From NCBI GenBank assembly GCA_023386315.1, contig JAEWJZ010000008.1, positions 1-64,000 of the forward strand: a stretch of DNA of 64,000 nucleotides, read 5' to 3'. A program made the translations under genes and the position numbers. The DNA comes from Bacillota bacterium (lineage in GTDB: Bacteria > Bacillota > Clostridia > Lachnospirales > Lachnospiraceae). Shown in pieces: positions 41,287 to 63,805 of this stretch. The first letter of the stretch is position 1, and the number at the start of each line of letters is the position of its first letter. The notes beneath the pieces are model-generated. The model had not been told where the DNA came from. It saw only the letters and a program-made list of their open reading frames with translations, and ran no database searches.

Positions 41287-44200
41287 TCAGTCACATACCA
41301 GCTCACCTTCACCACCGATTTTCTTGCGGCCCATTTTATAAACAGCGCGGTAGAATGTCGGAAGCAAAAGAAGTGTTAAAGCTGTAGATGCAAGTAATCC
41401 ACCCACGTTAACCAAAGCGAGTCCCTGCATCATCTTTCCCGATTTACCATATGCAAGTGCATTGGGAACCATGGATATGACTGTGGTCAGGGTAGTCATG
41501 AAAATAGGTCTCATACGGATTGCACCTGCTTCCACCAGAGCTTTGTCTAACGGCATTTCTCCCAGCATTTGGTTAACCGTCTCAACATACAGGATACCAT
41601 TATTTACAACGGTACCGACAAGCATCAAAAATCCCAGCATGGATACCATATCAATCGGGCAGTCAGCAGAATACAGCAGACCGAAAGAACCGATCAGACT
41701 GAACGGAATCGAAGTCATTACCATAGCAGAATATTTAGGTGACTCAAACTGAATCGCCATAACAATAAATACCAGGAAAATACCAGTGATTAAAGCGCCT
41801 CCCAATGCTGCAAGCTCTTCATTCATTATTTTATCCAGATCATTGGTCATAGGCTTCACGCCTGCCGGCAGTTTCCAATCTTTTACAAATTTTTTAACAT
41901 CATTTTCCGCAGTTTTCATATATTCTGCCTGAGGCTGCATGGTAATGGCAACCTTATATTGTTTATCCTTTCGCTCAATCTGCCTCGGACTGTCTTTATA
42001 ATAGATATCAGCCAGATCGCTGAGCGGAAGCGTTGTTCCTGTGGCGGTTGTAATCATCATTCCCTGCAGATCCTCTATAGCATCATATTTATCCGGAGCA
42101 TACTCCACCTTAACATCAATATCGTCTCCGTCAACACGAATTGTTGATGATTTAATTCCGCTTAAACTGGAATATACATTGGAACCGATTACAGCCGGAG
42201 TCAATCCCTCTGCCTGTGCTTTTACCGGGTCAACACGTACTTTTACAACAGGAGCTGCGTTCTCCACGCTTGAATGAACCTGCATAACATCTTTTCTCTT
42301 TTGCAGCTCAGCAACCAAATCTGCACTGGCTTTTTTCAGTGTCTCATAGTTGGTACTCTGCAGGTCAATCTCAATTTCATCGCCAGACTGCATGGCACTG
42401 GACATGGTAGTACTTCCTTCTTTTAAAGTTACGGAACAATCTTTAAAATCCGTCATCTTCCCTCTCCACTTATCAATTACCTGATCTGTGGTAAGTTTCC
42501 GTCCATCTTTCAGATAAGCATTCAGGGTTACATCACTGTCAGATTTTATGCTCAATCCTCCGGAACCATAAGTTATGAGATAATGATCTACATTTTCATC
42601 CTTGGAGACAAAATCTTCCAGACCTGCTACTGACTGATTAATGGCATCAACAGAAAGACCTGGCTTTGTTTTTATAGTCATACTGACAATACCCTCATCT
42701 ACAGATGTCATTAAATCCACTCTCAGCTTGGAAGCCATTCCAAATGCAGCTGCTAAAAGCAATATACTTAACCCAAATACCAGCTTCGTCTTGGTTATAA
42801 GGGTAGGAATGTGTTTTCTATACCAGTTCTGCAAAGACTTTATAAGACCGTTTACCGGAGCCTTTTCTTTTTCTACCGGGTGCCAGTGTACAAAGCTTAA
42901 CGGCACAATTGTTACGGCTGAAAATAAAGATGCAGTCATACAAAATACAATCGTATAACCCAGCTGTTTGAATAGCTGTCCTGACATACCGCTTAGAAAG
43001 ACCAGAGGTAAAAATACTACGCAGGTCGTGATTGTACCGCCGGTAATGGACCCTACCATGATCCGGCTGCCTTCAATCGCAGCATCATAGTAATTTCTCG
43101 TTTCTTTTGCGCGGAAACATCCATCCAAAACATTGATGGAGTTATCAACCATCATACCTACACCAAGCACCAGCGATGTCAGGGAAATAACATTTAAAGA
43201 AAAGCCCATGGCACTCATACAAATCAGGGACAGCACCACGGATATGGGAATAGAGGTACCTACAATGACGGATGCTCTTAAATCTCCGTAAAACAGCCAT
43301 AGTATAATCATGGATAGGATAATAGCCATGACCATGGTTTCCACTACGTTTGATATGGAATCCATAATTACATCGCTGGAATCATTAACGACCGTAATAT
43401 TAACGCCTGGATTTTCAGCTAATATCTCTCCGATTTGTTCGGATACCTGTTTGGAAACTTCAATCGCAGTGGCGTCAGACTGCTTCTTTATATCAAGAGA
43501 AATGATGTTTTCTCCGTTATAACGTCCGATAGAATCCTTATCTTCCAGGGCATCAAATACATCTGCAATATCAGATAAATGTATGGTATCCCCGTTTGCC
43601 AGCGGGACTGCAATCTTTTTTAAGCTTTCTGTATTATCATAATCATTTCCCACACTGACATTGAGATTTTGTCTGCCAACATCAATATCTCCGGCAGGAA
43701 TTGTAAAATCTGCAGCACCCACTATTTTAGCAACTGCCGGCATGTTTAAATGATACTGTTTTAATTTTTCCGGATCCAGCTGAACGCTTACATAACTTTC
43801 CTGTCCGCCGGCAATGGATACTTCACTGACTGAGCTGAGTTTTTCAAACTCCGGAACGATTTTATTATCCACATATGTATACAGATTTTGACCTACATTT
43901 CCGCTGACTGCCAGTGTAACTGCAGCTTCTGAAGTCAGATTTAATTCCAGAATTTTGGGTTCCTCAATATCATCAGGCATATCATTACGGATTCCATCGA
44001 TTGCTTTTTTCAGATTAATATAAGCTGTATCGATGTTTGTTCCGTATTCATACTTTACTAATACAATTGATACATTCTCTTTTGAATAAGAGTTAATGGT
44101 ATCAACGCCATCCAGAGATGATATGGCGTCTTCCTGCTTGGTAGTAATTAAGTCATTTACATCCTCCGGGCTGGCTCCCACATAAACAGTACCGATAACC

Positions 44201-44337
44201 AGCATGGGAAGATCCATTTCAGGAGTGAGTTCTACTTTTGTTCCCAATAAAGACTGAATTCCAAAATAAGCGATCGTAATCAGGCAGAGTATGATCGTTA
44301 CAGGCCTTTTTACTGCAAATTTTGTCAAATTAACCAT
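41287..44337 (-). CDS. RND efflux transporter, cluster 1
   Basis: A 1016-residue pump of the AcrB/HAE-type RND superfamily. It starts MVNLTKFAVKRPVTIILCLI, has TM1, a large extracytoplasmic porter domain, TM2-6, a second porter domain and TM7-12, the usual duplicated 12-TM layout. TM4 carries GVGMMVDNSINVLDGCFR; in AcrB this place has two Asp, here Asp-Asn. The ATG is 1 nt past the stop of the adaptor gene, so they are coupled. Substrate unknown; drug or lipid export is typical. Highly similar by eye to the pump at 59603. Confidence 0.92.
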   Translation of the reverse strand: MVNLTKFAVKRPVTIILCLITIAYFGIQSLLGTKVELTPEMDLPMLVIGTVYVGASPEDVNDLITTKQEDAISSLDGVDTINSYSKENVSIVLVKYEYGTNIDTAYINLKKAIDGIRNDMPDDIEEPKILELNLTSEAAVTLAVSGNVGQNLYTYVDNKIVPEFEKLSSVSEVSIAGGQESYVSVQLDPEKLKQYHLNMPAVAKIVGAADFTIPAGDIDVGRQNLNVSVGNDYDNTESLKKIAVPLANGDTIHLSDIADVFDALEDKDSIGRYNGENIISLDIKKQSDATAIEVSKQVSEQIGEILAENPGVNITVVNDSSDVIMDSISNVVETMVMAIILSMIILWLFYGDLRASVIVGTSIPISVVLSLICMSAMGFSLNVISLTSLVLGVGMMVDNSINVLDGCFRAKETRNYYDAAIEGSRIMVGSITGGTITTCVVFLPLVFLSGMSGQLFKQLGYTIVFCMTASLFSAVTIVPLSFVHWHPVEKEKAPVNGLIKSLQNWYRKHIPTLITKTKLVFGLSILLLAAAFGMASKLRVDLMTSVDEGIVSMTIKTKPGLSVDAINQSVAGLEDFVSKDENVDHYLITYGSGGLSIKSDSDVTLNAYLKDGRKLTTDQVIDKWRGKMTDFKDCSVTLKEGSTTMSSAMQSGDEIEIDLQSTNYETLKKASADLVAELQKRKDVMQVHSSVENAAPVVKVRVDPVKAQAEGLTPAVIGSNVYSSLSGIKSSTIRVDGDDIDVKVEYAPDKYDAIEDLQGMMITTATGTTLPLSDLADIYYKDSPRQIERKDKQYKVAITMQPQAEYMKTAENDVKKFVKDWKLPAGVKPMTNDLDKIMNEELAALGGALITGIFLVFIVMAIQFESPKYSAMVMTSIPFSLIGSFGLLYSADCPIDMVSMLGFLMLVGTVVNNGILYVETVNQMLGEMPLDKALVEAGAIRMRPIFMTTLTTVISMVPNALAYGKSGKMMQGLALVNVGGLLASTALTLLLLPTFYRAVYKMGRKKIGGEGELVCD

Positions 44338-44338
44338 A

Positions 44339-45460
44339 CTATTCACCTACCTTCGAGTCCGCATTGGCAGGTGTCACTGTCTCTTCTTCCGAATCCTGCG
44401 CTTTATTATCTTCTCCCAGCAGAACCTCCGTTCCATCAATCAGTTCATTGCTCCAACTGGTTATCACCTTGCTGTCATTTGTAATTCCGGATGTTACTTC
44501 CATTTTTTCGTTATCATATATTCCAGTAGAAATTTCTGTTTTTCTTGCAGTTCCATTATCGTAACAGTAAACAAAGGGCACCCCTGCATCGTAGCTTACA
44601 GCATCAACCGGAATTGTCATGACTCCTGCTGCCTTACTCATGACAACAGTAATTTTGACCCTTGTTCCCGTTGTCAGACCTTTTGAATCAGCAAGCACTG
44701 ACTTTACGTCGTAGAGACCGGTTTCGCCATTAACCACTGAACTGATTTCCGTAACCGTTCCTTCATATTTCACTCCATTTTTTTCTACTGATATGGAGTC
44801 GTTAACCGCCATATTCTGTAAAGTCTTTTCTGTAATTCCAAACGTTATCTGAATCTGGTTTGTTCCTGAAATTTTACAGATTTCTGATCCCACCGCAATA
44901 TGGTCATGTGGTTCAACCGTTCGCGATTCTATCACACCGCTGATGGGAGCAGTCACTGTGGTATATTCAAGCTGCAGATCATACTGGTTTTTTGCTGCAT
45001 CATATTTCAGCTTTGCATTATTTGCAGCATTCTGAGCCTGCTCCAGTGTCTCATGGGATACCGCACCGGTGGAATAAAGTGCCTCTGTTCTGGCAAGTGT
45101 ATTGTGGCTGTCACTAACCGCTATGGCTGCAGAATCTACATTAATTTTTAAGGTTGTTAAAGCATCTGAATCAATTTTGCAAAGAGGCTGGCCGGCTTCT
45201 ACCATGTCTCCTGCGCGGAAATAAACCTCCAGTACTTCTCCATTCATTTTAGGCATCACGTTTGCCTTTAACTCAGGCTCCACTGTTCCCGTTAAGTCCG
45301 TGTACAGGATTATATCCCCTGTCTGAGGCTGCTCTACTGACACAAGAGGCCGTGTTTCATACGGTATTTCTTCCTTTTTCTTCCCAAAAATACTAAATCC
45401 GATGATTCCGGCCGCTATTATTATAATTGCACCAAAAGCCAGTTTTTTCTTACTCTTCAT
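44339..45460 (-). CDS. RND membrane-fusion (periplasmic adaptor) protein, cluster 1
   Basis: The 373-residue protein has an N-terminal TM anchor (KLAFGAIIIIAAGIIGFSIF), a lipoyl/biotinyl half (VMPKMNGEVLEVYFRAGDMV, TVTAPISGVIESRTVEPHDH) around an alpha-hairpin, and C-terminal beta-barrel and membrane-proximal domains. This is the AcrA/HlyD adaptor layout. The ATG at 45460 has AAAGGAATATGAG upstream. It lies between the TolC-like and RND genes, all in one operon. In diderm cells such proteins bridge pump and TolC; here the outer membrane is expected to be absent. Confidence 0.92.
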   Translation of the reverse strand: MKSKKKLAFGAIIIIAAGIIGFSIFGKKKEEIPYETRPLVSVEQPQTGDIILYTDLTGTVEPELKANVMPKMNGEVLEVYFRAGDMVEAGQPLCKIDSDALTTLKINVDSAAIAVSDSHNTLARTEALYSTGAVSHETLEQAQNAANNAKLKYDAAKNQYDLQLEYTTVTAPISGVIESRTVEPHDHIAVGSEICKISGTNQIQITFGITEKTLQNMAVNDSISVEKNGVKYEGTVTEISSVVNGETGLYDVKSVLADSKGLTTGTRVKITVVMSKAAGVMTIPVDAVSYDAGVPFVYCYDNGTARKTEISTGIYDNEKMEVTSGITNDSKVITSWSNELIDGTEVLLGEDNKAQDSEEETVTPANADSKVGE

Positions 45461-45516
45461 CTCATATTCCTTTCTCAAAATCCCTTGATGTAAACTTTAT
45501 GCTAATCATCTGAGTT

Positions 45517-46740
45517 TTAAAAATCCAGTATTCCCTGCGTTGCCCAGTAATATAGCTCCATAGCCTGGCGCAGAGACAGATCAGCATTTGTTTTATCCCC
45601 GTCTGCCTGATAGTAAGACAGCATTTGTCCCAAATACTCTATCTGACTGATGGAACCGTTCTGCATTTGTACTTCAGTTGCATTTTTTATAATAACTGCC
45701 TGGTCATATGCAGTGCGGGCCGCCTCACAGTTTTTCTTCTTTTCCATAATGTCCTGATACAGCTGTTCCATCTGAATTGACAGGTTCTGTTCCATCTGTT
45801 CCTCATTGCGGAATTTTGATTTCACTCTGGTCGTGCTTCTGTCTGTTTTCCTGTGCCGTTCATCAATTAACGTATAATTATTGCGGATTGCCGACGCTGT
45901 ATCCTCCTGCAGATTCAATTCATCAATTTTACTTAAATCCACTGGGGGAACAGTCTGAATCTGAGGCATTTCCTCCCCTGTCCAGCCTGTCAGCAGTTTT
46001 AGAGTTGATCCCAGATTTTCCACGGTATTTTCAAGGCTGGCAAGCGAGCTTTCTGCAGACAGGAGATTTTTTTTTGCGGCAATCACCTCTGCATCCGTCG
46101 CCATACCCAGACCCTGCATAGAGACAGTTGCAGAATAAAGTTTTTCGTACATTTCCGTCATAGTCTGCAGTGTTTTTTTCTGAGCTGAAGCCATATTGTA
46201 GCCGATCATTGCCTGCTGGGCTCCATTGGTCAGCTGTTTTGCACCTTTCCTGACCGGTTCATAGGAAGAGGCGTCGGATTTGGTGTTATCATTATAGGCT
46301 CTGCTGATCTTATCACCGGCGCTTTTCATGGCCTTTTCATAGGCCCGGAGAGTGGCATACAGGATCTGGCCATCCATTGTGGCCAGACCTCCTTCATCCC
46401 TTACATCATCCGCGTCATCTTTAAAATCTTCTGCATCATGGTAGGCTGCCATATACTGATCCTTCACATCATCCATAGCAGACCAGTACATCTCATTTGC
46501 AGAAACCATATTGGGATTAAACAGCTTAATTCTGTCTCCCAGTTCGTCATATTCCAGAACATTATCCTGAATCAATTCCCACTGTTTTTCATTATATCCA
46601 TCCGGGACCGCATTTTCTGCTTTTCCAGGCTCTTTCATACCAGCTGCAAATACCGGCAGCACCATGGCATTTCCCGCCATGGATACAATAGCAGCTGTAA
46701 GCAGGACAGCATGCCACTTATTACTCATTTTCCAACGCAT
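45517..46740 (-). CDS. TolC-like outer-membrane-efflux family protein, type B, cluster 1
   Basis: The 407-residue protein has a signal peptide (MSNKWHAVLLTAAIVSMAGN, cut near VFAAG) and is long-helical, with heptad-like Lys/Glu/Ala stretches and the repeated-half pattern of the TolC family (TMTEMYEKLYSATVSMQGLG MATDAEVIAAKKNLL region, and VQMQNGSISQIEYLGQMLSY near the end). The N-terminal QWELIQDNVLEYDELGDRIK phrase is shared with the other three TolC-like proteins here. AAGGAGG lies 8 nt before the ATG. It is a paralogue of 57108-58325. Confidence 0.85.
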   Translation of the reverse strand: MRWKMSNKWHAVLLTAAIVSMAGNAMVLPVFAAGMKEPGKAENAVPDGYNEKQWELIQDNVLEYDELGDRIKLFNPNMVSANEMYWSAMDDVKDQYMAAYHDAEDFKDDADDVRDEGGLATMDGQILYATLRAYEKAMKSAGDKISRAYNDNTKSDASSYEPVRKGAKQLTNGAQQAMIGYNMASAQKKTLQTMTEMYEKLYSATVSMQGLGMATDAEVIAAKKNLLSAESSLASLENTVENLGSTLKLLTGWTGEEMPQIQTVPPVDLSKIDELNLQEDTASAIRNNYTLIDERHRKTDRSTTRVKSKFRNEEQMEQNLSIQMEQLYQDIMEKKKNCEAARTAYDQAVIIKNATEVQMQNGSISQIEYLGQMLSYYQADGDKTNADLSLRQAMELYYWATQGILDF

Positions 46741-46753
46741 GATTTTATCCTCC

Positions 46754-47890
46754 TTACTGTACGGATGCCATACCGTTCACTGACCAGTTATACATTTCCA
46801 TGGTCCAGAACCAATCCATATCTGCAATTTTTAACGCATTCTGTTTTGCCAGATAATCCGTCTGCTGCTGCAAATATTCCAGCTGTCCGATGGTGCCCAG
46901 ACTGTTTTTCTGTGATGCGATTTCCATTTTTCTTGATTCTTCCTCTAAAGCACTTTGTGCTTCTTTATAAGCAACTTCAGCCTGCAAAACATCACGGTAT
47001 TTCTTATCCAGATCTGTACCTATTTTTTCTTTATTATCCTTGATCTTAATCCGATAAGAGTCTTTCACCACTTCTGATACTGCATTTTCCAGCTTTCTCT
47101 GGTTCATTTTAAGCTCATAATTACTATCAGCTGCTTTGGAATAATCTGAATCAGGATTCATATTGGAAATTCTTGCCGGATCTGCCGCCGGTATCTGTCT
47201 CATATCAGGGGAAGCCTGGTATCCCCAGCCCAGCATGACGCAAAGGGTCTGTTTCAGCTTACTGATGGATGCTTCTGTCTGAATAACAGCAGTCTCTGTT
47301 TTTTGGAGATTATTCCTGGCATTCAGCACATCCACATTTGTTGAGGATCCGATATCTCTCTGAACTTCTGTCACCCGAAGCACTTCTGTGAGCAGTTTCT
47401 GATTCTGTTTTAGGACTTCCAGGTTAAGAATGGACTTATAATAAGAAATCATGTTAGACTGTGCCATAATGGCCAGATTTTTTTCGGTCTGGAGATTGGA
47501 ATACCTCATTACCTCTAAGTCAAACACATTATCATCTGCTTTTTTCTCCAATGACCGGGCCTGCGCCTCTGCCATGGCATCTGCCAGGTCATCGTCACCA
47601 GTTATGTTACCCCGAAGGTCAGCCGCATCATCCCGATACGACCGTGCAACATCATCTGCGGTGGGATCATCTCTCTGCTTGGAATATTCTACCTGGTTAT
47701 TTAAGACCGTCGCATTATATTCATGAATCAAATCTTCTATTTCTCCGTATTCCATGGTATTGTCACGAAGTTTCTCCCATTCTGTATCTGAACGGGCAAA
47801 TGTGGGACTGGCCAATGCTTCTTTCGGATAAGACAGCAAAGCAGCCGTTAACAGAATCAGTAAAAATTGCATCTTTTTTTTATTCGTCAT
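46754..47890 (-). CDS. TolC-like outer-membrane-efflux family protein, type A, cluster 1
   Basis: About 378 residues, starting MTNKKKMQFLLILLTAALLS as a signal peptide (an ATG two codons earlier is possible). The mature part has EWEKLRDNTMEYGEIEDLIH, then long helices with VQRDIGSSTNVDVLNARNNL and the late IASQKNSLGTIGQLEYLQQQ, the two-fold repeated pattern of TolC family proteins. It is the type A partner of the type B gene 14 nt downstream, and a paralogue of 58330-59478. It is the first gene after tetR. Confidence 0.85.
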   Translation of the reverse strand: MTNKKKMQFLLILLTAALLSYPKEALASPTFARSDTEWEKLRDNTMEYGEIEDLIHEYNATVLNNQVEYSKQRDDPTADDVARSYRDDAADLRGNITGDDDLADAMAEAQARSLEKKADDNVFDLEVMRYSNLQTEKNLAIMAQSNMISYYKSILNLEVLKQNQKLLTEVLRVTEVQRDIGSSTNVDVLNARNNLQKTETAVIQTEASISKLKQTLCVMLGWGYQASPDMRQIPAADPARISNMNPDSDYSKAADSNYELKMNQRKLENAVSEVVKDSYRIKIKDNKEKIGTDLDKKYRDVLQAEVAYKEAQSALEEESRKMEIASQKNSLGTIGQLEYLQQQTDYLAKQNALKIADMDWFWTMEMYNWSVNGMASVQ

Positions 47891-47983
47891 CACCATTATT
47901 CCTTTCCTATAGTTGAGGTTAACCATACCTTAAATTGACTTAAATAATATTTCTGTACTCATTTCGGCAGCCTCACTTTATAT

Positions 47984-48009
47984 ACAAATGTAAGTTAATT
48001 GACATTTGT
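47984..48009. promoter_or_regulatory. Candidate operator upstream of the TolC/RND operon, cluster 1
   Basis: ACAAATGT-N10-ACATTTGT, 8-bp perfect arms, about 95 nt upstream of the type A TolC-like gene. The right arm lies in TGACATTTGTTA, which resembles the palindrome upstream of tetR (TGACAACTTGTCA). A link to the TetR protein is inference. Confidence 0.45.
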
Positions 48010-48098
48010 TATTTTTAGTGTAAGATAATTTTAGTATTATTTCAAGAATCAAAAGATGTTACAATGTAAATTAAGAGACAAATCTTATCAATCTGTTT

Positions 48099-48123
48099 CC
48101 GAAAAGGAAGAAACTGCCAATCT
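48099..48123 (-). terminator. Weak terminator after tetR
   Basis: GGAAGA/TCTTCC stem followed by TTTT on the minus strand, just after the tetR stop. Short stem; may allow read-through into the pump operon. Confidence 0.4.
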
Positions 48124-48127
48124 TCCT

Positions 48128-48757
48128 TTATGCTCTTCTGCGGACCCCCTCTTCTATTACCTGGAACTGATATTTAACCGCATGGAGAATCTCATCTATA
48201 TCCGCTGATTCCATAAAATACATGGACATGGATTTTGCCACAAGGAAAAGCAGAAGTTCCAGTAATTCTGACAGTTCTCCACTGCTTGAAACCGGGCAGA
48301 CAATATGATCCAGCTTCTCAAAACAGTAACGGACCAGTTCCTGTTCTTCTTTACTCTTATTAAAAAAATCCTTGAAGCCTATCATGCTTGTTTCTGTCAT
48401 CAATTTTGCATCTAAAAATATATTTTTGTAGAATATAAAATCCTGCTGCTCCCGTCCGAAATTGATCAATACCAGGATTGAATTCCAAAATACCTGATAA
48501 ATATTACCTTCGCATAATTCAAGATTTTGAAAAAACCACCGTTTGCAGGTTTCCTGAAAATCACGCAGCAGATAAGCAAGCAAATCTTCCTTATCATCAA
48601 AATAAGTATAAAAACTTCCCCTGGAGATATCAGCCTCTTTTATAATCTGGTTTATCGAGACATCGGAAAAGGAAAATTTTGAAAATTCACGAATTGCCGC
48701 ACGTTTTATTGTTTCACGTTTAATATCAGGCAAATGTAAAAAACGTTGTGTTGGCAT
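48128..48757 (-). CDS. TetR-family transcriptional regulator, cluster 1
   Basis: The 209-residue protein has an N-terminal TetR helix-turn-helix: IKRAAIREFSKFSFSDVSIN followed by QIIKEADISRGSFYTYFDDK and EDLLAYLL (about residues 17-65). The C-terminal helical domain is a putative ligand pocket. The ATG at 48757 follows GGAAGGA; a GTG four codons earlier is possible. It lies upstream of the TolC/MFP/RND genes on the same strand, so it probably represses them. A perfect palindrome lies in its own promoter region. Confidence 0.92.
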   Translation of the reverse strand: MPTQRFLHLPDIKRETIKRAAIREFSKFSFSDVSINQIIKEADISRGSFYTYFDDKEDLLAYLLRDFQETCKRWFFQNLELCEGNIYQVFWNSILVLINFGREQQDFIFYKNIFLDAKLMTETSMIGFKDFFNKSKEEQELVRYCFEKLDHIVCPVSSSGELSELLELLLFLVAKSMSMYFMESADIDEILHAVKYQFQVIEEGVRRRA

Positions 48758-48808: not shown

Positions 48809-48823
48809 ATGACAACTTGTCAT
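48809..48823. promoter_or_regulatory. Perfect palindrome upstream of tetR, candidate TetR operator
   Basis: ATGACAACTTGTCAT: 7-bp arms around one central base, about 27 nt upstream of the tetR -10 box. The size and place fit a TetR autoregulatory operator. Confidence 0.55.
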
Positions 48824-48832
48824 CTTATAGTC

Positions 48833-48863
48833 AAAACATATGGCGGAAAATATCCGCCATATG
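48833..48863 (-). terminator. Terminator of the second cell-wall repeat protein gene
   Basis: CATATGGCGGA/TCCGCCATATG 11-bp stem followed by TTTT on the minus strand. Confidence 0.8.
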
Positions 48864-48892
48864 TTATATGTGAAACCTTTGTCAGAGCATAA

Positions 48893-50801: not shown

Positions 50802-50830
50802 TTGATTTTTTAATGAACAGTTTATATACT
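50802..50830 (+). promoter_or_regulatory. Promoter of the recombinase pair
   Basis: TTGATT, 17-nt spacer, TATACT, 46 nt upstream of the first recombinase ATG. Confidence 0.65.
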
Positions 50831-50875
50831 TGTGTTAAACTGTATTTGTTTGATTCTAAAAGGAGATGGAAAGAT

Positions 50876-51739
50876 ATGACGAAAGGAAACGTAATAACCG
50901 AAATTACAACCGAGAACAAAAGCGTCGTAGAGCAAAGCCTTGATGATTTCCAAAAATATTTGAAAATCAACAATATGTCTGCAAATACCATTCACGTATA
51001 TTTGTTTGCAGCAAGACAGTTTCTTGACCGATACCATGTGATCAGCCATGATAATCTCATGCTCTATAAGTGCTACTTAATGGAGCATTACAAGCCTCAG
51101 ACAGTAAATTTGAGAATCAGGGCGCTGAACTGCTACATGGAATCTTTAAAGCTTTCTTCTTCAAAAATGCTGATGATACGCGTCCAGCAGAAAACGTTCC
51201 TGGAGAACATTATCAGCCAGGCAGACTATGAGTATTTAAAAAACTGCCTCATCCGTGATGGAAACATGCTGTATTATTTTGTGATCCGGTTTATGGCTGC
51301 TACCGGAGTTCGGGTCAGTGAACTTGTAATGACAAAAGTGGAACATGTAAAATGCGGACATATGGATATTTACTCCAAGGATAACAAAATAAGAAGAATT
51401 TACTTTCCTAAAAGCCTGCGCGTGGAAGCACTTAAATGGCTGGGGCAGATCAACCGTGTCAGCGGATACGTCTTCTTAAACCGATACGGGGAACCAATCA
51501 CTCCTGCCGGAATACGCGGACAGCTTAAAAAATTTACCGCGCTTTACGGGCTGGATCCAAAGGTCGTTTACCCCCACTCCTTCCGTCATCGTTTTGCAAA
51601 AAATTTTATTGAGAAATGCGGAGATATCTCCATGCTTTCTGATATTTTAGGTCATGAAAGTATTGAAACAACAAGAATTTACTTACATAGAAGCAGTACG
51701 GAACAAAAACAGATCGTTAATCAGATTGTGAATTGGTAG
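50876..51739 (+). CDS. Tyrosine recombinase, first of a tandem pair
   Basis: A 287-residue XerC/D-like recombinase with an N-terminal SAM-like DNA-binding domain (DDFQKYLKINNMSANTIHVY, about residues 23-42) and a C-terminal catalytic domain. All catalytic residues are present: Arg146 (GVRVSEL), a Lys in the YSKDNKIRRIYFP beta-hairpin, His234 and Arg237 (YPHSFRHRFAKNF), His260 (LGHESIETT) and nucleophile Tyr269 (RIYLHRSS). The ATG at 50876 follows AAAGGAG; upstream in-frame codons lack a site. The close paralogue starts 6 nt later. No phage or ICE genes are near, so integration or DNA inversion are both open. Confidence 0.9.
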   Translation: MTKGNVITEITTENKSVVEQSLDDFQKYLKINNMSANTIHVYLFAARQFLDRYHVISHDNLMLYKCYLMEHYKPQTVNLRIRALNCYMESLKLSSSKMLMIRVQQKTFLENIISQADYEYLKNCLIRDGNMLYYFVIRFMAATGVRVSELVMTKVEHVKCGHMDIYSKDNKIRRIYFPKSLRVEALKWLGQINRVSGYVFLNRYGEPITPAGIRGQLKKFTALYGLDPKVVYPHSFRHRFAKNFIEKCGDISMLSDILGHESIETTRIYLHRSSTEQKQIVNQIVNW

Positions 51740-51745
51740 GGAATT

Positions 51746-52591
51746 ATGTTAAATGAAGAATTATTGAATGAATTTAAGAAATATTTAAAGAAAAAAAATT
51801 TATCAGGTAACTCCATTACTGCCTATGCAGGCAGTGTGCGGCTTTTTTTCACCCTGTATGATGAGGTTACACCTGAGAATCTTCAACAGTATAAGAGCTA
51901 CTTAATTCCGCGATACCGCCCGGCAACCGTAAATCAGCGGATATATGCAATCAACCATTTTTCCCGTTTTCTGGCGGAGACAAGTGAAGCGGATTCCATT
52001 TTGTTGTCATCCTACCATCTCCCGTCTGTTAAAGTGCAGCAGAAAACTTTTCTGGACACGATTATTTCCAATGAAGATTATGAGATCTTTAAAGAGAGGC
52101 TGAAAGAAGAAAAGAATTATTTCTGGTACTTTATTGTACGCTTTCTAGCCGCTACAGGCGCCAGGGTCAGCGAACTGATTCAGATAAAGGAAGAGCATTT
52201 AAAGCTGGGTTATTTAGATCTGTATTCCAAGGGAGGAAAGATACGGCGTATCTACTTTCCTGATTCCCTTTGTGAAGAGGCACTGGCATGGTGTGCGGAC
52301 CGCGGTGTCCGAAGCGGCTTTTTGTTTTTGAATAAAACAGGTCATTTGATTACCCCCAGGGGAATTAATTACCAGCTCAAGCATCTGGCCAGCCGCTATG
52401 GGATAGATCCTGATACGGTTTACCCCCATTCATTCCGGCATCGTTTTGCAAAGAATTTTTTAGCCCGCAATAATGACATCTCACTTCTTGCCGATTTAAT
52501 GGGGCACGAAAGCATCGAGACAACCAGAATCTACCTGACTCGTTCCAGCCAGGAACAACAACAGCTCCTTGACGAAATTATCACATGGTGA
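51746..52591 (+). CDS. Tyrosine recombinase, second of a tandem pair
   Basis: A 281-residue paralogue of the preceding protein with the same layout: N-terminal FKKYLKKKNLSGNSITAYAG, then Arg140 (GARVSEL), His228 and Arg231 (YPHSFRHRFAKNF), His254 (MGHESIETT) and Tyr263 (RIYLTRSS), all intact. Both share the GSVRLFF/ARQFL core-binding and VQQKTFL linker phrases, pointing to a tandem duplication. The 6-nt gap suggests co-translation. Pairs of such recombinases may act as a heterodimer on nonidentical half-sites, as XerC and XerD do; which site they use here is unknown. Confidence 0.9.
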   Translation: MLNEELLNEFKKYLKKKNLSGNSITAYAGSVRLFFTLYDEVTPENLQQYKSYLIPRYRPATVNQRIYAINHFSRFLAETSEADSILLSSYHLPSVKVQQKTFLDTIISNEDYEIFKERLKEEKNYFWYFIVRFLAATGARVSELIQIKEEHLKLGYLDLYSKGGKIRRIYFPDSLCEEALAWCADRGVRSGFLFLNKTGHLITPRGINYQLKHLASRYGIDPDTVYPHSFRHRFAKNFLARNNDISLLADLMGHESIETTRIYLTRSSQEQQQLLDEIITW

Positions 52592-52666
52592 GCGTATTTT
52601 TTTAATATTTTATGTTTCTTTTTTATTATTTTTGCGATATAATTTCAAAAAGGAGGATAAAACGCA

Positions 52667-56476: not shown

Positions 56477-57130
56477 ATGAAACAGAAACGTGATTTATTC
56501 TTATGTATTACCTGCCTGCTCATTGCTTTTTTACTGACACTGGCAGATGGCAGATCAAATGATGAGGCCCTTGCCGCCCGGATCGCCCCTGAAATCCTGC
56601 GGTTTCATGTTTTGGCAAACAGCAATAGTACACAGGATCAGAATTTAAAGCTGAAAGTACGCACCATGCTTCTCAATTCAATATATGAAGACCTTGGCGA
56701 AAATGCATCCCTGGATGACACAAAAACCTATATCCGCTCCCATGAATCCACTCTGGAGAAAAAAGCAGAAAACTACATGAAGAACCTGGGATTTAATTAT
56801 CCTGCACATATGGAGCTGACAGATTGCTACTTTCCAACCAAAACCTATGGGGATATGGTGTTTCCCTGCGGAACCTATGAAGCCGTAAGGGTAAAAATAG
56901 GCGAAGGAAAAGGACACAACTGGTGGTGCGTCCTCTATCCTCCGCTCTGTTTTACGGATTCTTCCTATGCAGTCGTGCCGGATACCTCAAAAGAGATCCT
57001 GCGGCACTCCATAGATGAATCTGATTATTTAAAATTAAGAAAAGAACCTGTAAAAATCCATGTAAAGCTTAAAGTTTTGGATCTACTTCCTGTGAATAAA
57101 AAAACCGCTATTTCGCAGAATCCACAATGA
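56477..57130 (+). CDS. spoIIR: Stage II sporulation protein R
   Basis: SpoIIR is made in the forespore under sigma-F and triggers SpoIIGA to process sigma-E in the mother cell. The 217-residue protein has an N-terminal signal/TM segment (LFLCITCLLIAFLLTLADG) and the family's conserved IAPEILRFHVLANSNSTQDQ, GDMVFPCGTYEAVRVKIGEG and KGHNWWCVLYPPLCF stretches. It starts 11 nt after AAAAGGAGG. A sigma-F-like promoter precedes it. Its 3' end overlaps a convergent TolC-like gene by 23 nt. This strongly implies an endospore former. Confidence 0.95.
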   Translation: MKQKRDLFLCITCLLIAFLLTLADGRSNDEALAARIAPEILRFHVLANSNSTQDQNLKLKVRTMLLNSIYEDLGENASLDDTKTYIRSHESTLEKKAENYMKNLGFNYPAHMELTDCYFPTKTYGDMVFPCGTYEAVRVKIGEGKGHNWWCVLYPPLCFTDSSYAVVPDTSKEILRHSIDESDYLKLRKEPVKIHVKLKVLDLLPVNKKTAISQNPQ

Positions 57131-58325
57131 TTCCCTTTACAGCCCACTGGTAAGTAGTGTATGCCTGATACAGCTCTGCATATGCACTTTGCCTTGCACC
57201 CTCTGCCTGTAAAAATGCCATTTGAGACTGAAGATATGTAATTTTACTTAACATACCCATCTGAAAAGAACGCTCTGCTTTCCCTTTATCAAGCACTGCC
57301 TTCTCGTAGGAGGTATTGGCTGCTTCATAAGCGGTCTTTGCCTGCTTCAGATTCTGATAAAAAGATTGCATGGTGACTGCAACATTCTGTTCGCCTTCCG
57401 ATACTCTTGCCTTTTTATTTTCCATTCCCGTAGAAGTCTTATCGGAATTGGTACGGCGCATATCGATAAGGGCATAATTGTTGCTTATGGCTTTTGCTGT
57501 ATCGCTTTCAAGGTCCAGGTTGGAAATTGCTGACAGATCCAGTTCCGGGAGATCTCCTACATTTGGCAGAGAATCTAAGGAATACCCTGTCATTAGAGCC
57601 AGTGACCGCCGCAGACCATCAACCGTCTGTTCCAGGCTTAATACAGAAGCCTGGGTGGTAAGTACTTCCTTTTTTGCAGACAGGACATCATTTAGTGTTG
57701 CCGTACCAACTTGCTGACCTAATTGCTGAGCTTCATAAGCAGAATTACATACTTCCGATGCTTTTTGAAGCAGTGCCCGGTTTGCAACAGCGTTGTTATA
57801 TCCGATCATAAGCTGATCGGCATAATACTCATATTGCCTTGAGGCCTGTGTAATACCGGAGTTGATCTTGGAATTGGATTGGTTAAGAGTTTTAAGGGTC
57901 CATTGTAACTTATCAGTCTGGGTCTTTATACTTTTTACTGTTCCCTCTAAAACCTTATATACAGGGATTCCATCTTCATTAGTTATACCAGTTGGCTTAA
58001 GTTCCTTCGCCTGATCCTCAAGTTCCTTTATTTTATTTTTCATTTCGATTCCTACAAGCTCATTATAAACGTACTTAAGATTATCTATATTCGAATTGGC
58101 AGAATCCACTATATTCTGCAAATCCGGATTAAAATACCGGACCAGGTCGGAAAGTTCACCAAATTCTATGTTGCTGTCATTTAATTTACTCCACTGTTCC
58201 GCTGTTATTCCCTCAGGGATCGGTTTTTCTGCCTGCCCCGGTCCAACAGCTCCATATGCGGGAGAAACCGAGGAAGCCGTTAACAGCGTGGCCAAAAATA
58301 TTGGCCAAACTTTTTTATTTCTCAT
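57108..58325 (-). CDS. TolC-like outer-membrane-efflux family protein, type B, cluster 2
   Basis: The 405-residue protein has a signal peptide (MRNKKVWPIFLATLLTASSV, cut near AYGAV), then QWSKLNDSNIEFGELSDLVR and long helical segments with AQQLGQQVGTATLNDVLSAK and QMGMLSKITYLQSQMAFLQA, the two-halves pattern of TolC family proteins. It is the type B paralogue of 45517-46740. It lies 4 nt after the type A gene and ends inside the convergent spoIIR gene by 23 nt. Confidence 0.85.
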   Translation of the reverse strand: MRNKKVWPIFLATLLTASSVSPAYGAVGPGQAEKPIPEGITAEQWSKLNDSNIEFGELSDLVRYFNPDLQNIVDSANSNIDNLKYVYNELVGIEMKNKIKELEDQAKELKPTGITNEDGIPVYKVLEGTVKSIKTQTDKLQWTLKTLNQSNSKINSGITQASRQYEYYADQLMIGYNNAVANRALLQKASEVCNSAYEAQQLGQQVGTATLNDVLSAKKEVLTTQASVLSLEQTVDGLRRSLALMTGYSLDSLPNVGDLPELDLSAISNLDLESDTAKAISNNYALIDMRRTNSDKTSTGMENKKARVSEGEQNVAVTMQSFYQNLKQAKTAYEAANTSYEKAVLDKGKAERSFQMGMLSKITYLQSQMAFLQAEGARQSAYAELYQAYTTYQWAVKGIIVDSAK

Positions 58326-58329
58326 CTCA

Positions 58330-59478
58330 TCAGCCTCCTGCCGAAGCTAGCCCGTTAACAGCATTGTCATAGGTCTGGACCGCCTGAAATAATGTAAGCT
58401 GAGCCTTCTTCATCGAATTATCTTTTGTATTATATACATTCTTTTGCTTCATGTAATCAAGTCTGCTTAAAGTTCCGATCTGCTGCTTATGCTCTGCTGT
58501 CTCCATATTCTTACTTTCCAGCTCAAATTCTCCCTTTGCCTGTTCATAAGAGGCTTTGGCTTGCTGAACAGCCTGATAGTTCTTTACAATCTCAGATTTT
58601 ATATTCTGCTCATTGCTGAGAACCGTCCGCTTTAATGTTTCTTTCGTCAGTTCAGCCACCGCATTTTCCAGCTTTCTTTTATTGATTTTAAAAGTATAAT
58701 TTTTTTCCAGCGCAGCATCTTTATCTGTTTCCGGATTCATCGCAGCAATATGTTCAAAATCAACAGCCGGTATATCCCTGATTTCAGGTGTATCGCTATA
58801 CTTCCAGCCCAACATAACAAGAAGTTTTTGTCTTGTCTCTTCAATTGACCCGGTAAGTTTCTCAATTGAAGCCTGAGTGCTCTGAACACCTTCCTTGGCT
58901 GCAAGCACATCAGATAAGGTGGCCATTCCTGCACTTTGCTTTACAAGAATCGCCTGATATTGAGCTTCCATATATTCCAGGCTGTCTTTTGCTGACTCCA
59001 ACTCTAATTTCTGTTGAAAATATGATATCATAGAGGACTGAGCAGAAGCTACCAGGCCAGCTTCCTGCTGGTCATAGGTGAGTTGGTGCACAGTTATATC
59101 TTCAGTAACCTTATCTGCGGCCTCTTCTGCCTGAGCTGCAGCCACCTGAGCCTGCGCATCTGCCACTGGATCATCGCCAGAGACATTGCTTCTGGCATCA
59201 AACGCCGCATCACGGTAGTACTGAGCATATTGATCCCGGGTAACTTTATCATCTTTTTTCTTGTCACTGATATCGAGCTGATTCTTATGAACCGTTACAT
59301 TATACTCACGAATCAAACCTGCCAGTTCATCGTATTCCATCACATTATCTCTAAGCTTTGCCCACTCCTCAGCAGTCCTTGAAAACTCCGGATTTCCAGC
59401 CCAGACAGTCGATGCCGGTCCGGAGAAGGTCATCACGGCTGCCAGAGCAAATGCACCAATTTGTTTCCATTTCTTCAT
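58330..59478 (-). CDS. TolC-like outer-membrane-efflux family protein, type A, cluster 2
   Basis: The 382-residue protein has a signal peptide (MKKWKQIGAFALAAVMTFSG, cut near VWAGN) and EWAKLRDNVMEYDELAGLIR close to that of 46754-47890. The helices include LVKQSAGMATLSDVLAAKEG-like (ILVKQSAGMATLSDVLAAK) and HKQQIGTLSRLDYMKQKNVY. It has its own promoter in the gap after the RND gene, so the two TolC-like genes form a separate transcription unit in this cluster. Confidence 0.85.
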   Translation of the reverse strand: MKKWKQIGAFALAAVMTFSGPASTVWAGNPEFSRTAEEWAKLRDNVMEYDELAGLIREYNVTVHKNQLDISDKKKDDKVTRDQYAQYYRDAAFDARSNVSGDDPVADAQAQVAAAQAEEAADKVTEDITVHQLTYDQQEAGLVASAQSSMISYFQQKLELESAKDSLEYMEAQYQAILVKQSAGMATLSDVLAAKEGVQSTQASIEKLTGSIEETRQKLLVMLGWKYSDTPEIRDIPAVDFEHIAAMNPETDKDAALEKNYTFKINKRKLENAVAELTKETLKRTVLSNEQNIKSEIVKNYQAVQQAKASYEQAKGEFELESKNMETAEHKQQIGTLSRLDYMKQKNVYNTKDNSMKKAQLTLFQAVQTYDNAVNGLASAGG

Positions 59479-59593: not shown

Positions 59594-59616
59594 ACTGCCG
59601 GTTTAATCCGGCAGCT
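59594..59616 (-). other. Hairpin overlapping the stop of the cluster 2 RND gene
   Basis: CTGCCGG and CCGGCAG arms around the TAA stop codon (loop ATTAAA). No T-run follows. It may mark the 3' end or an RNA cleavage site before the TolC pair. Confidence 0.4.
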
Positions 59617-62600
59617 GGGTTTTATCTACTTTTCCGCTCATCAGTGAATAATAAACCGGAAGCATAAGCATCGATAATATGGTGGAAGCAGTAAGACCTC
59701 CCACGTTAACAAGCGCAAGTCCCTGCATTGTCTCAGTGTTGCGTCCGATTCCCAATGCCATAGGAACCATGGATACAATGGTGGTAAGGGTGGTCATCAA
59801 TATGGGACGAAGCCTGGTAGCTCCTGCTTCTATAAGGGAAGTATTCTTATCCATGGTAGCCCGATACTGGTTAACTGTATCGACATAGAGAATACCGGAG
59901 TTTACTACTGTACCTATCAGCATTAAAAATCCCAGAAGGGATGGCATACTGATTGCAACATCTGCCGCCAGCAGACAGGCAAAGGAGCCAATCAGACTGA
60001 AGGGGATGGTCGTCATAACCATCAGTGAGAACTTTGGTGACTCAAACTGAGCCGCCATTACCACAAAAATTAAAAATGTAGCTATCAAAATAGCTTTTAC
60101 CAGATTACCAAGCTCTTCCTGCATGGACTCATCTTCACTGTTTTTTGCTCTTGAGACTTTGTCGTTTAAGTATTTACTCACAACTTTACTGTCAAGCTCT
60201 TTAATCGCTGCAGCTTTATCCTTCTTCGTCTTAATAACATCAGTGAAAGATCCTGTAATCGTAACCTGATACTGTTTGTTTTTTCTGTTGATGGCAGTGG
60301 GGCTGTCTTCATAACCGATACTGGCAATATCAGTCAGCGCCACAGAACCACCTGTGGTGTTGGGTACCGTAACTCCCTCTACCTTTTCCAGTGTATCATA
60401 GGTTCCTTCCGGATATTCAACCTTTACATCCACATTCTGACCTTCTACATCCATGGTCGTGGCTTTCACACCACTTAACATTCCGTTCAGCATACCACCT
60501 ACTGTTGAAGGTGCCACACCCTCCGCTGCCGCCTTAATCGGGTCTACACTCACCTTTATAACTGGTGCTGCATTCTCAAGGTCGGAATGCACTTTAATCA
60601 TCTCTGGACGGCTGCTTAATTCAGCAACCATCTGGTCAGAGGTCTTTTTTAAATGGTCCAGCTGGGCGCTTTGAAGTATTACCTCAAAATCGTTGCCGCC
60701 TCCGCCTCCCATCTGGCTGACACTGGAGGTTGATTTTACGGTAACGTTACAATCTGGAATCTGGCCCATGAGTTTCTTCCATTTATTAACAACCTCATCT
60801 GTAGTGAGTGTTCTGTCACTCTTTAAATAAGCGGTCAAAGAACCGTTTGTTCCTCCGGCGAAACTGAGTTCACCTGATCCATAGCTGGCCATATAGGATT
60901 TTAAATCTGGTTCACTGGTGACGATTGCCTCCAGCTTTTTTAAAACCTGATCCGCTTCTTCGATCTTTAACCCCGGCTTCATCTTAGCAGTGATGGAAAT
61001 CGTTCCCTGATCCACCGAAGGCATAAGTTCAAAGCCCAGCTTTGTTGCAAATCCAAATGATGCGAATAATAACAATACTGAAAAGATCATGACAAGAGCC
61101 CGTCTTTTTAACAGCTTACCAACGATCTTTCTATAACCGTTCTGAAGAGCTTTTACAATTCCTCCCATTGGAGAATTCTGTCTTTCCACAGGGCAGAACC
61201 TGCTGTAGCATAAAGGAACAACTGTCAAAGCAGAGACAAAGGATGCCATCATACAAAAGACTATGGTATATCCAAGAGGCTTAAACAGCTGTCCTGTCAG
61301 ACCTTCCAAGAACGCCAGCGGGATAAACACAACGCAGGTGGTTAACGTTCCGCCGAGAATGGACTGCATGACAACACCGGTTCCTTCCAGGGCCGCTGAC
61401 AAATATTCCCTGAAACCAGTTCCTTTTTGTGAACGGAAACAACTCTCCAGTACAACGATGGAGTTATCTACCATCATACCGACGCCCAATACAATACTGC
61501 TCATGGTAATTACATTCAGTGAAAATCCCATGGCAGACATCATAATCAGTGATACGAGAATGGATACGGGTATGGAGCTTCCTACAATCAGAGACGCTTT
61601 AATATCCCCGAAAAAGAGGAAGATAATAACCATGGAAATAATAACAGCCATAATCATGGTATTTTTTACGCTGTTCAATGCGCTGGTAATCTGCTCACTG
61701 TTATCATCTACAACTACAATATCCAGATTAGGGTATTCACTTTTTAAAGAAGAAATCGTTTTAGTTACGGATCTGGATACATCAACCGCACTGTTTTTCT
61801 GCTGTTTGTTAATGGATAAGGTAATGGTATCTTCTCCATTATACCGGCCAATTGCTTTTTTCTTCTGGTTTGTTTCCGAAATATCTGCAATATCTTCCAT
61901 ATAGATAGTCTTTCCCTGGCTGATTACGACAGGTACTTTTTTCAGACTTTCCACAGTCTTTACTTCCACTCCGGTACTGACGGATAAATCTCTCTTCCCC
62001 ACTCCGGTATTACCCGCAGGATAAGTGAAATCTGCAGCTTTGATCGCCTGGCTGATCGAGTCCATATTAAGATGGTACTGTTTCATCTTTTCAGGCGAAA
62101 GAGTGACTCTGACATAGCCTTCCTCACCACCGCTAATATTGACGCTGGCAACAGATGATATCTTCTCAAGTTCTGGTACAATCTTATCATTTACATAGTT
62201 GTACAAATTGTTTTGTGAAGGATCATTCACTGACAAAGTCATGGATGGCATCTCATTGATGTTAAATTCCATAATGGACGGTTTTTCCACGTCCTTAGGC
62301 AGATCCACACTGTCCATTTTCTTTTTTAAATCATTATATGCCTTATTCATATCGGTACCGTAATTATATTCCATGTACACGATAGAAAGATTCTGCTGGG
62401 AACTGGACTGAACATTTTTAATCCCGGAAAGAGTACCCACCGACTCTTCAATTGGTTTGGTTACCAGATCGTTAATGTCTTCCGGACTCGCCCCCACATA
62501 AGTAGTCGTTACTAATAACATAGGGAAATTCATCTCCGGCGTCAGTTCCATCTTTGCTGAAAAAACAGATGACAGGCCGAATACAAGAAGGCATAAAACA

Positions 62601-62650
62601 GCTAATACGGCAGTTATGGGCCGCTTTAAAACAAATTTTGTCATTCCCAT
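59603..62650 (-). CDS. RND efflux transporter, cluster 2
   Basis: A 1015-residue RND pump of the AcrB/HAE type, starting MGMTKFVLKRPITAVLAVLC with the same 12-TM duplicated layout as the cluster 1 pump. TM4 has GVGMMVDNSIVVLESCFR, again Asp-Asn where AcrB has Asp-Asp. A Gly/Gly-rich VSQMGGGGGNDFEV stretch is in the second porter domain. AAGGAGG lies 7 nt before the ATG. It follows the adaptor gene by 12 nt. Substrate unknown. Confidence 0.92.
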   Translation of the reverse strand: MGMTKFVLKRPITAVLAVLCLLVFGLSSVFSAKMELTPEMNFPMLLVTTTYVGASPEDINDLVTKPIEESVGTLSGIKNVQSSSQQNLSIVYMEYNYGTDMNKAYNDLKKKMDSVDLPKDVEKPSIMEFNINEMPSMTLSVNDPSQNNLYNYVNDKIVPELEKISSVASVNISGGEEGYVRVTLSPEKMKQYHLNMDSISQAIKAADFTYPAGNTGVGKRDLSVSTGVEVKTVESLKKVPVVISQGKTIYMEDIADISETNQKKKAIGRYNGEDTITLSINKQQKNSAVDVSRSVTKTISSLKSEYPNLDIVVVDDNSEQITSALNSVKNTMIMAVIISMVIIFLFFGDIKASLIVGSSIPVSILVSLIMMSAMGFSLNVITMSSIVLGVGMMVDNSIVVLESCFRSQKGTGFREYLSAALEGTGVVMQSILGGTLTTCVVFIPLAFLEGLTGQLFKPLGYTIVFCMMASFVSALTVVPLCYSRFCPVERQNSPMGGIVKALQNGYRKIVGKLLKRRALVMIFSVLLLFASFGFATKLGFELMPSVDQGTISITAKMKPGLKIEEADQVLKKLEAIVTSEPDLKSYMASYGSGELSFAGGTNGSLTAYLKSDRTLTTDEVVNKWKKLMGQIPDCNVTVKSTSSVSQMGGGGGNDFEVILQSAQLDHLKKTSDQMVAELSSRPEMIKVHSDLENAAPVIKVSVDPIKAAAEGVAPSTVGGMLNGMLSGVKATTMDVEGQNVDVKVEYPEGTYDTLEKVEGVTVPNTTGGSVALTDIASIGYEDSPTAINRKNKQYQVTITGSFTDVIKTKKDKAAAIKELDSKVVSKYLNDKVSRAKNSEDESMQEELGNLVKAILIATFLIFVVMAAQFESPKFSLMVMTTIPFSLIGSFACLLAADVAISMPSLLGFLMLIGTVVNSGILYVDTVNQYRATMDKNTSLIEAGATRLRPILMTTLTTIVSMVPMALGIGRNTETMQGLALVNVGGLTASTILSMLMLPVYYSLMSGKVDKTQLPD

Positions 62651-62662: not shown

Positions 62663-63805
62663 TTATTGTGCAGAAGCAGAAGTTTCTACCTCGGTTCCAT
62701 TGCCTTCTGTCGTCTCTGTTTCTGTTGTGGTTTCTTCCTTATTTTCTTCTGCCAGAGTCACTTTGGAGCCGTCATATAATTCGCTGGTCCATGTTGTGAT
62801 CACCTGATCATCTGGGCTGATCCCGGACTGAACCTCTGCAAATTCATTATTCGTAAGACCGATGGTAACTGCATTCTTTTTCAATGTTCCGTTGGAATAT
62901 GTATAAATAAATGGATCTCCTGACTCATAATAGACACTGTCAACCGGAACTGTAAGTACATTTTCGGCTTTCTGGGCAGTTACATAAAGCTTGACGGAGG
63001 TTCCGGTGGCAAGTGTATCCCCTGCGGGTATAGAAGCTTTCACTTTGAATAATCCGCTGCCGCTGTCAACCATGGTGCTTACTTCTGTTATGGTTGCTTC
63101 ATGATCTGTTCCGTTTTTCTCTACCCGGATTGCATCTCCGGCTTTTAATCCGCTTATAATCCGCTCTGATACATAAAAAGTAAGAGACTTTCCGCCATCT
63201 CCTGAAATTACGCAGATTGTTGTCTGGGGAGAGATCATATCGTGAAGGCTGATATCAAAGCTTTCCACTTTTCCCGAAATGGGTGCCGTCACCTGACTGC
63301 CTTCCAGCTGGTTATTATATAAAATCTTAGCATTCTCATATTGAAGTCTGGCAGTTTCCACCTTATCCACAGTGGACTGGTAATCTGCATCAGCCACATC
63401 TCCTGCAGCATGAAGAACCGTATAACGGTCTAAATTCCTCTTGGCATCCTCATATGTGATTCTGGAGGTTTCCATGGCAATCCGGGTACTTTCCACCTGT
63501 TTTGTATCAATCACGCAGAGAAGCTGACCTGCTGTTACTGTGTCTCCGGTCTTCACACCTATGTTTGTAACTTCGCCTGAGCCAAGAGGTGTCACATGAA
63601 CAATACTGTCCGGTTCAATAGTACCAATCAGTTCATTGCTGATTTCTATCGTGCGGGTCTGTGGTTTTTCGGCAGTTACCACCGGCGGCGCTTCTGCTAC
63701 CAGCTCTTCCTTGCCACCACTAAGAATCTTAGGCAGTACGAGCCCTGCGAGAACAGCCACTACGACTACAGTTCCTGCAATTATAAATACTTTTTTCTTT
63801 GTCAT
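62663..63805 (-). CDS. RND membrane-fusion (periplasmic adaptor) protein, cluster 2
   Basis: The 380-residue protein has an N-terminal TM helix (KVFIIAGTVVVVAVLAGLVL), a lipoyl half (VTPLGSGEVTNIGVKTGDTV, VTAPISGKVESFDISLHDMI) around a helical hairpin, beta-barrel and membrane-proximal domains, and a Thr/Glu-rich C-terminal tail. It resembles 44339-45460 in layout. AAGGAGC precedes the ATG. It is the first full gene of the cluster, following the probable TetR gene by about 40 nt. Confidence 0.92.
   Translation of the reverse strand: MTKKKVFIIAGTVVVVAVLAGLVLPKILSGGKEELVAEAPPVVTAEKPQTRTIEISNELIGTIEPDSIVHVTPLGSGEVTNIGVKTGDTVTAGQLLCVIDTKQVESTRIAMETSRITYEDAKRNLDRYTVLHAAGDVADADYQSTVDKVETARLQYENAKILYNNQLEGSQVTAPISGKVESFDISLHDMISPQTTICVISGDGGKSLTFYVSERIISGLKAGDAIRVEKNGTDHEATITEVSTMVDSGSGLFKVKASIPAGDTLATGTSVKLYVTAQKAENVLTVPVDSVYYESGDPFIYTYSNGTLKKNAVTIGLTNNEFAEVQSGISPDDQVITTWTSELYDGSKVTLAEENKEETTTETETTEGNGTEVETSASAQ

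Follow-up and report, generated by a model that had tools for sequence, protein, structure and literature searches.

Paired TolC-like proteins predicted to lack the outer-membrane barrel are encoded with RND efflux pumps in apparently single-membrane Lachnospiraceae

Introduction

TolC is the textbook exit duct of the outer membrane, and the usual picture of Gram-positive pumps has the substrate released at the membrane face.

In tripartite pumps, the RLS motif (RxxxLxxxxxxS) at the tip of the adaptor hairpin binds the tips of TolC (excerpts of PMC3391258), and its conservation is not absolute (excerpts of PMC4446572). TolC-like proteins with tripartite operons are already known in monoderm Firmicutes; the accessible portions of Stubenrauch et al. 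2022 (PMC8809574) present a single C. difficile protein, modelled by homology, in whose barrel a part is omitted, propose the S-layer as the site of such proteins, describe a C. difficile TolC-like protein that is shed together with an S-layer protein and, in the S6 legend, mention one operon (L. gingivalis) with two TolC-like genes. The words 'RLS' and 'hairpin' are absent from the main text of that paper. Beyond it, a search of titles and abstract openings, which covered no preprints and few subscription papers, returned no paired or barrel-less TolC in monoderms.

Here, we analyse a stretch of 64,000 nucleotides (the window) from a Bacillota bacterium of the Lachnospiraceae, in which an RND operon contains two TolC-like genes that we call type A and type B. 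We consider it probable that the operon encodes a functional tripartite efflux pump of the RND type in a monoderm host, whose helical duct has no barrel, reaches into the wall and is built from a dedicated A/B pair.

Results

The operon consists of five genes, all on the minus strand, in the transcription order TetR, OEP-A1, OEP-B1, MFP and RND, and the ORF list together with Pfam matches bears out the initial annotation, which had placed a regulator, two TolC-like proteins, an adaptor and a pump in one direction. The TetR-family regulator (48128..48757) matches TetR_N (PF00440, 8.9e-12) and, slightly below cut-off, PF17924 (1.4e-5); its start at 48757 is an ATG, while the ORF tool places the start at a GTG at 48769. 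OEP-A1 (46754..47926; OEP, PF02321, 4.6e-11) and OEP-B1 (45517..46740; PF02321, 3.1e-11) are predicted barrel-less TolC-like proteins with apparent signal peptides, called by eye from the sequence; the likely ATG start of OEP-A1 is internal, at 47890 or 47896. The membrane fusion protein or adaptor, MFP (44339..45478; HlyD_D23, PF16576, 4.2e-14), has an apparent N-terminal membrane anchor, reaches 201 bits against the NCBIfam RND_mfp cut-off of 94.9, and has MexJ, MexC, MexA and AcrA as relatives in the PDB. The RND permease (41287..44346) is full length, covering positions 2-1020 of the 1021 of the ACR_tran profile (8.9e-196). Permease, adaptor and duct genes, the gene set of a tripartite RND pump, are present together. 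The RND and OEP proteins score under their NCBIfam subfamily cut-offs (TIGR01844/TIGR01845 for the OEPs); all four OEPs of the window exceed the Pfam cut-off for PF02321 in the HMM search, in keeping with the four TolC-like proteins counted earlier, and homologues in Lacrimispora carry the name TolC family protein.

A second set at 57108-63805 on the same strand has a different gene order: adaptor (62663..63805, family match), RND permease (59603..62650; ACR_tran 2.8e-207), OEP-A2 (58330..59478; PF02321 8.8e-10) and OEP-B2 (57108..58325; PF02321 3.9e-9), the last two falling in the A and B clades of the tree, respectively. Many relatives have a TetR gene beside this cluster, at a place that the window stops short of. 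The operon arrangement was found again in 78 other loci, and the nearest genome (G001), which has 39% of sampled words in common with the window, carries A/B pairs on two contigs.

With M for the adaptor and R for the permease, the 78 loci comprise 39 with TetR-M-R-A-B, 19 with M-R-A-B, five with A-B alone, three with TetR-A-B-M-R, three with TetR-A-B and nine single odd or partial architectures. One of the TetR-A-B loci, L101, is a short contig. TetR-A-B is free of a pump within the fetched stretch in L103 and L105, and also in L146 and L151, while in L147 the A/B pair lies behind a MacA-like adaptor, which retains the strict RLS pattern defined below, and a split MacB (PF12704, PF02687, PF00005). 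Judged from these gene neighbourhoods, A/B pairs may not be confined to one pump each.

Upstream of the TetR gene lies an exact palindrome, ATGACAA-C-TTGTCAT (48809..48823), the sole match in the window, and L036, L037 and L039 have the variant ATGACAA-G-TTGTCAT in front of their copy of this gene; the shared form ATGACAA-N-TTGTCAT is likely the TetR operator. In the alignment, the same three loci are missing ~211 bp that separate TetR from OEP-A1 in the window (47906..48116), within which a repeat search located an imperfect inverted repeat of 13+13 bp (47984-48009).

Alignment-based single-chain models of A1 and B1, two of the four window OEPs, both contain the TolC alpha-barrel fold with two repeats and long helix hairpins, in agreement with the TolC-like assignment made from sequence. 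They match this fold from residue 57-62 through the chain end, with modest Foldseek TM-scores and large rmsd (A1 0.32-0.59 and B1 0.37-0.54, matches at E<=1e-3); the follow-up match lists were second looks at Foldseek matches, in which missing unrelated folds carry no weight. Neither model contains a strand of >=3 residues where four beta-strands per chain would build the outer-membrane barrel. Model and alignment place a helical acidic segment (residues 84-136; 47519..47677, minus strand) in A1 and a helical hairpin (residues 76-157; 46270..46515, minus strand) in B1 in lieu of the first barrel hairpin, and at the site of TolC's second barrel hairpin they have a short turn in A1 (residues 282-284; 47075..47083, minus strand) and a turn in B1 (residues 297-302; 45835..45852, minus strand); the second hairpin is absent in 82 of the 82 rows of the combined A and B alignment. 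The missing strands and the missing second hairpin support the conclusion that the barrel has been lost in the two modelled proteins, as the initial annotation had supposed, and that these are predicted TolC-family derivatives rather than outer-membrane channels. Hydropathy was rejected as proof of a far end outside the membrane: the type A segment and the matching CusC segment have similar hydropathy, the latter being equally hydrophilic (GRAVY -1.0) and merely less charged.

At the opposite, proximal end, the tips are conserved. A1 carries GSSTNVDV (47327..47350) and GTIGQLEY (46874..46897), each with its tip glycine in 41/41 A rows, and B1 carries GMATDAEV (46084..46107) and GSISQIEY (45634..45657), with the glycine in 41/41 and 38/41 B rows, respectively, all on the minus strand. 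Their putative docking partner, the RLS motif RTEALYSTGAVS at the tip of the adaptor hairpin (45056..45091, minus strand), is conserved among linked adaptors, and the adaptor of the second cluster has RYTVLHAAGDVA (63392-63427, minus strand) with A at the third position. Among 79 adaptors from A/B loci (2 from the window, 62 from the named loci and 15 from the family sample; 340-460 aa; scores >200 or >150), R and L are invariant (79/79 each), whereas the third position is occupied by S (59 adaptors) or A (20). The strict pattern R...L...G.[IVLM][STA] fits 77/79 of these and favours linked adaptors, since it was derived from them. Adaptors of L036, L040, L054, L092, L102 and L147 and two L152 fragments stood outside the set; the six that span the site carry the strict motif, and the two short fragments fall short of it.

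Control adaptors were drawn from 20 family genomes without A-type hits, of which 11 had an HlyD_D23 match; 26 loci were fetched and 25 counted, L179 being dropped for want of a profile hit. The strict pattern occurred in 1/25 control loci, inside the N-terminal membrane segment, and the loose pattern RxxxLxxxxxx[STA] in 6/25. Of these six, two have it close to the N-terminus and two seem to be copies of one locus; L184 and L185 resemble each other. The control set consists mostly of low-scoring adaptors from other subfamilies, which limits the contrast with A/B-linked adaptors. L175 offers the nearest comparison: this adaptor adjoins an RND permease and has neither the strict nor the loose motif; its stretch ends within the permease, and no A-type OEP was detected in its genome.

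These two conserved surfaces bear on the proposal that the TolC-like proteins have become soluble helical linkers, or a chaperone, in the wall space with no tunnel. Both models miss the barrel, a loose lipobox pattern is rare (7/76 A, 5/76 B) and LPxTG is absent from all 152 C-terminal ends examined (76 A and 76 B), as such a proposal would have it; yet the TolC fold extends over most of the chain, and the partner adaptors conserve the RLS motif. Because both docking sides are retained, the linker interpretation put forward in the initial annotation loses support, and we regard it as improbable beside a duct onto which the adaptor would dock.

A point that goes beyond that annotation is that A and B are distinct, conserved partners that nearly always occur together. 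Across the window and the 78 loci, a B copy lies directly downstream of A in 79/81 A copies, with a gap of -86 to 220 bp; of the other two copies, one belongs to a tandem array (L052) and one borders a contig end (L074). As the 78 loci had been found by searching for A, the genus and a 200-genus sample of the family were read as well. In the genus, A-type proteins were positive in 25/25 genomes, and 37/39 strong A hits, counted by eye, were paired, both exceptions lying within arrays of G002. Across the family, 19/200 sampled genera had A-type proteins (21 hits minus the weak G084 and G199, at ~20 bits in ORFs of 713 and 683 aa), in a census that scored <=9 first-look candidates per genome, so that absence is not absolute. 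Two OEP genes were present in 21/22 loci from 18 A-bearing family genomes, the remaining locus, L140, ending at a contig end; the fetched loci do not include G090:C141, where a contig begins with a partial hit. The Pfam OEP profile was rejected as a census tool in favour of an A profile: it also matches adaptor hairpins, including the window's own adaptor (E 0.0014) and OEP-positive ORFs of L126 and L131 that also match the adaptor, and its count of 44/61 OEP-positive genomes is therefore inflated.

The conservation also bears on whether these genes are non-functional leftovers of horizontal transfer. Signs of decay are the split RND ORFs in the relative L040 and, in another G001 region (L158), a truncated B-like ORF of 230 aa that stands by itself close to a contig end; against them, span, tips and motif are conserved in loci down to ~33% identity and all 25 genomes searched in the genus are positive, making decay a very improbable account of a set that we take to encode a working pump.

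Phylogenetically, A is monophyletic in both trees (support 97; 100/97), and B is a single clade in the first (99). In the second tree, B rows L086 and L097 and the second gene of L147 branch outside A plus the remaining B with middling support, which leaves a single origin of B less sure. Where gene order is swapped (L136, L155, L157), the tree follows the swap, the first gene joining B and the second joining A; L153 departs from this, with both proteins in the A clade. G050, from another family of the same order, has two pairs whose first genes form one separate clade and whose second genes form another, and forcing either clade together with A was rejected (p 0.0017 and 0.0016) in a tree test whose groups were named after the first tree was seen and which involves long branches. 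This rejection suggests a second origin of the paired design in G050, so that a two-part design may have arisen twice.

A closed tunnel and the mixing of A and B go beyond these single-chain models and are proposals. The simplest reading is that both paralogues would enter one duct, and we tentatively propose, at somewhat less than even confidence, that monoderm Lachnospiraceae use an obligate A+B all-helical TolC-family duct, either as a mixed ring or as two stacked storeys spanning a thick wall. Possible too, though we hold it in more doubt, is that A and B form two separate homotrimers, as alternative or differently used ducts. To our knowledge, the solved TolC-family channels are all homotrimers, the tips are kept in both types (with the second B glycine in 38 of 41 rows), and TetR-A-B loci occur with no pump in the fetched stretch; separate homotrimers, however, should lose one member more often than the near-constant adjacency of A and B allows, and the G050 family also has pairs of its own. 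If the joint A+B duct is real, we know of no earlier hetero-oligomer in the TolC family, and the pump would be one that crosses a wall rather than a membrane.

The host appears to be a single-membrane bacterium. SpoIIR (PF09551, 2.7e-48) and choline-type wall repeats (PF19127) lie beside the operon, as had been noted from the sequence, and the search for outer-membrane machinery covered relatives of the window's genome. Omp85/BamA was found in 0/61 related genomes (G001, 24 more of its genus, 12 of the family and 24 of the order) and 0/19 A-bearing genomes of the family sample, with the same model positive in 7/14 controls. LptD was found in 0/61, a weak test given a signal in only 2/14 controls. 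The monoderm host proposed earlier thus gains from the Omp85/BamA result and only weakly from LptD. A diderm host whose outer membrane is atypical would fit the TolC family as a normal outer-membrane marker; set against the Omp85 counts and the barrel absent from the models, it is extremely improbable.

SLH domains bear on where the far end of the duct may sit. At E<=1e-3, these occur in 16/19 A-bearing and 30/181 other genera (Fisher p 3.4e-9), at 1e-5 in 14/19 and 20/181, at 1e-6 in 12/19 and 17/181, and at 1e-9 in 6/19 and 14/181 (p 0.005), in statistics that treat genera as independent although they are not. CW_binding_2 was rejected as an S-layer marker, being present in 1/61 relatives. 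SLH domains are also found on enzymes, and their presence is not proof of an S-layer. The idea that an S-layer or SLH-anchored coat receives and anchors the end of the duct, along the lines of Stubenrauch et al. 2022, draws on the far greater frequency of SLH in A-bearing genera and on the shed C. difficile protein (excerpts of PMC8809574). On the other side, no SLH match was obtained in 3/19 A-bearing genomes (G149, G201, G208), several others have one weak match each, the excess shrinks at 1e-9 with genera that are not independent, and CW_binding_2 is just as scarce as stated. We consider an S-layer channel rather unlikely as the specific form of a wall-reaching duct; the SLH association itself extends what Stubenrauch et al. 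(PMC8809574) remarked on the S-layer.

Discussion

Taking the operon, the models and the conserved motifs together, we picture a pump in which the RND permease would pick up its substrate on the outer side of the membrane and hand it over through the adaptor ring, whose hairpin tips, bearing the RLS motif, would dock on the tips of a TolC-type helical tunnel. This tunnel would be a TolC derivative minus the outer-membrane barrel, a helical duct with charged helices at its far end. The loss of the barrel together with these helices suggests an opening outside any membrane, presumably in the zone of the peptidoglycan or S-layer, or past it.

If a barrel-less two-part TolC works in single-membrane cells, then tripartite efflux is not tied to the outer membrane, and the picture of release at the membrane face does not hold for some Lachnospiraceae, namely the A-bearing tenth or so (19/200) of the genera sampled. 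It would also be a natural example of how a protein of the outer membrane can be adapted to cells that have none, and what holds the far end of the duct, wall or S-layer, becomes directly testable.

Among known systems, AcrAB-TolC of E. coli resembles the window's operon in its RND permease, RLS-motif adaptor, two-repeat TolC fold, tip glycines and TetR-family regulator, but the window models are barrel-less, two TolC-like genes are present and an outer membrane is not indicated. The sequence of E. coli CusC, unlike the window OEPs, has barrel segments, with a second-repeat span of 121. MacAB-TolC finds its likeness in the A/B pair of L147 with its MacA-like adaptor and split MacB, whereas both window clusters are powered by RND. 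Closest are the TolC-like proteins of Stubenrauch et al. (PMC8809574, in the portions accessible), which share an OEP protein, a tripartite operon, a monoderm host, an altered hydrophilic barrel and no BAM. That study modelled one protein; the present analysis has two models without barrel strands, a family-wide A/B pair, an adaptor-motif test with control and a family-wide SLH test. The initial annotation had called the system under-described, which does not hold for the monoderm TolC-like phenomenon and the S-layer idea, both already in that paper, and does hold, as far as those portions go, for the new part, the paired, barrel-less form that keeps its docking sites.

Genomic setting of the pump genes

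A second complete set of A and B, the two types of barrel-less TolC-like protein (OEP), with membrane fusion protein adaptor and RND permease, was located in the window at 57108-63805 in the order adaptor-RND-A-B, and converges on the SpoIIR gene. In the operon at 41287-48757, the intergenic region between the TetR regulator gene and OEP-A1 carried an extra ~211 bp (47906-48116), which contained an imperfect inverted repeat and was absent from the aligned relatives L036, L037 and L039. Between TetR and the wall-repeat gene lay a perfect 13+13 bp inverted repeat (48835-48865), whose sequence appears terminator-like. Genes for a tandem pair of tyrosine recombinases and for an AAA_21 ATPase (50813-53887) adjoined the choline-repeat surface protein gene, a region possibly representing a site-specific inversion or a mobile element.

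Permeases and A/B pairs in other genomes

RND permease ORFs of 1109-1392 aa were found in loci L116, L117, L118, L119 and L121, with profile matches interrupted near position 200-230, suggesting from sequence an apparent extra stretch, and neither adaptor nor A/B OEP was matched within the fetched stretches, that of L116 being a short contig. At L175, an RND permease, incomplete because the fetched sequence stops within it, adjoined a long-coil adaptor in which the docking motif RxxxLxxxxxx[STA] (RLS) was not found, and its source genome G068 gave no A-type OEP hits. In one deposited genome (L040), the RND gene was broken up into five ORFs, a split that may be a sequencing error.

Loci L103, L105, L146 and L151 displayed the arrangement TetR-A-B, with no RND or adaptor match within the fetched stretches, and G050, from another family of the same taxonomic order, carried its own OEP genes as two tandem pairs (L128 and L129). 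At L147, the A/B pair followed an upstream MacAB-type ABC pump, the adaptor of which retained the RLS pattern.
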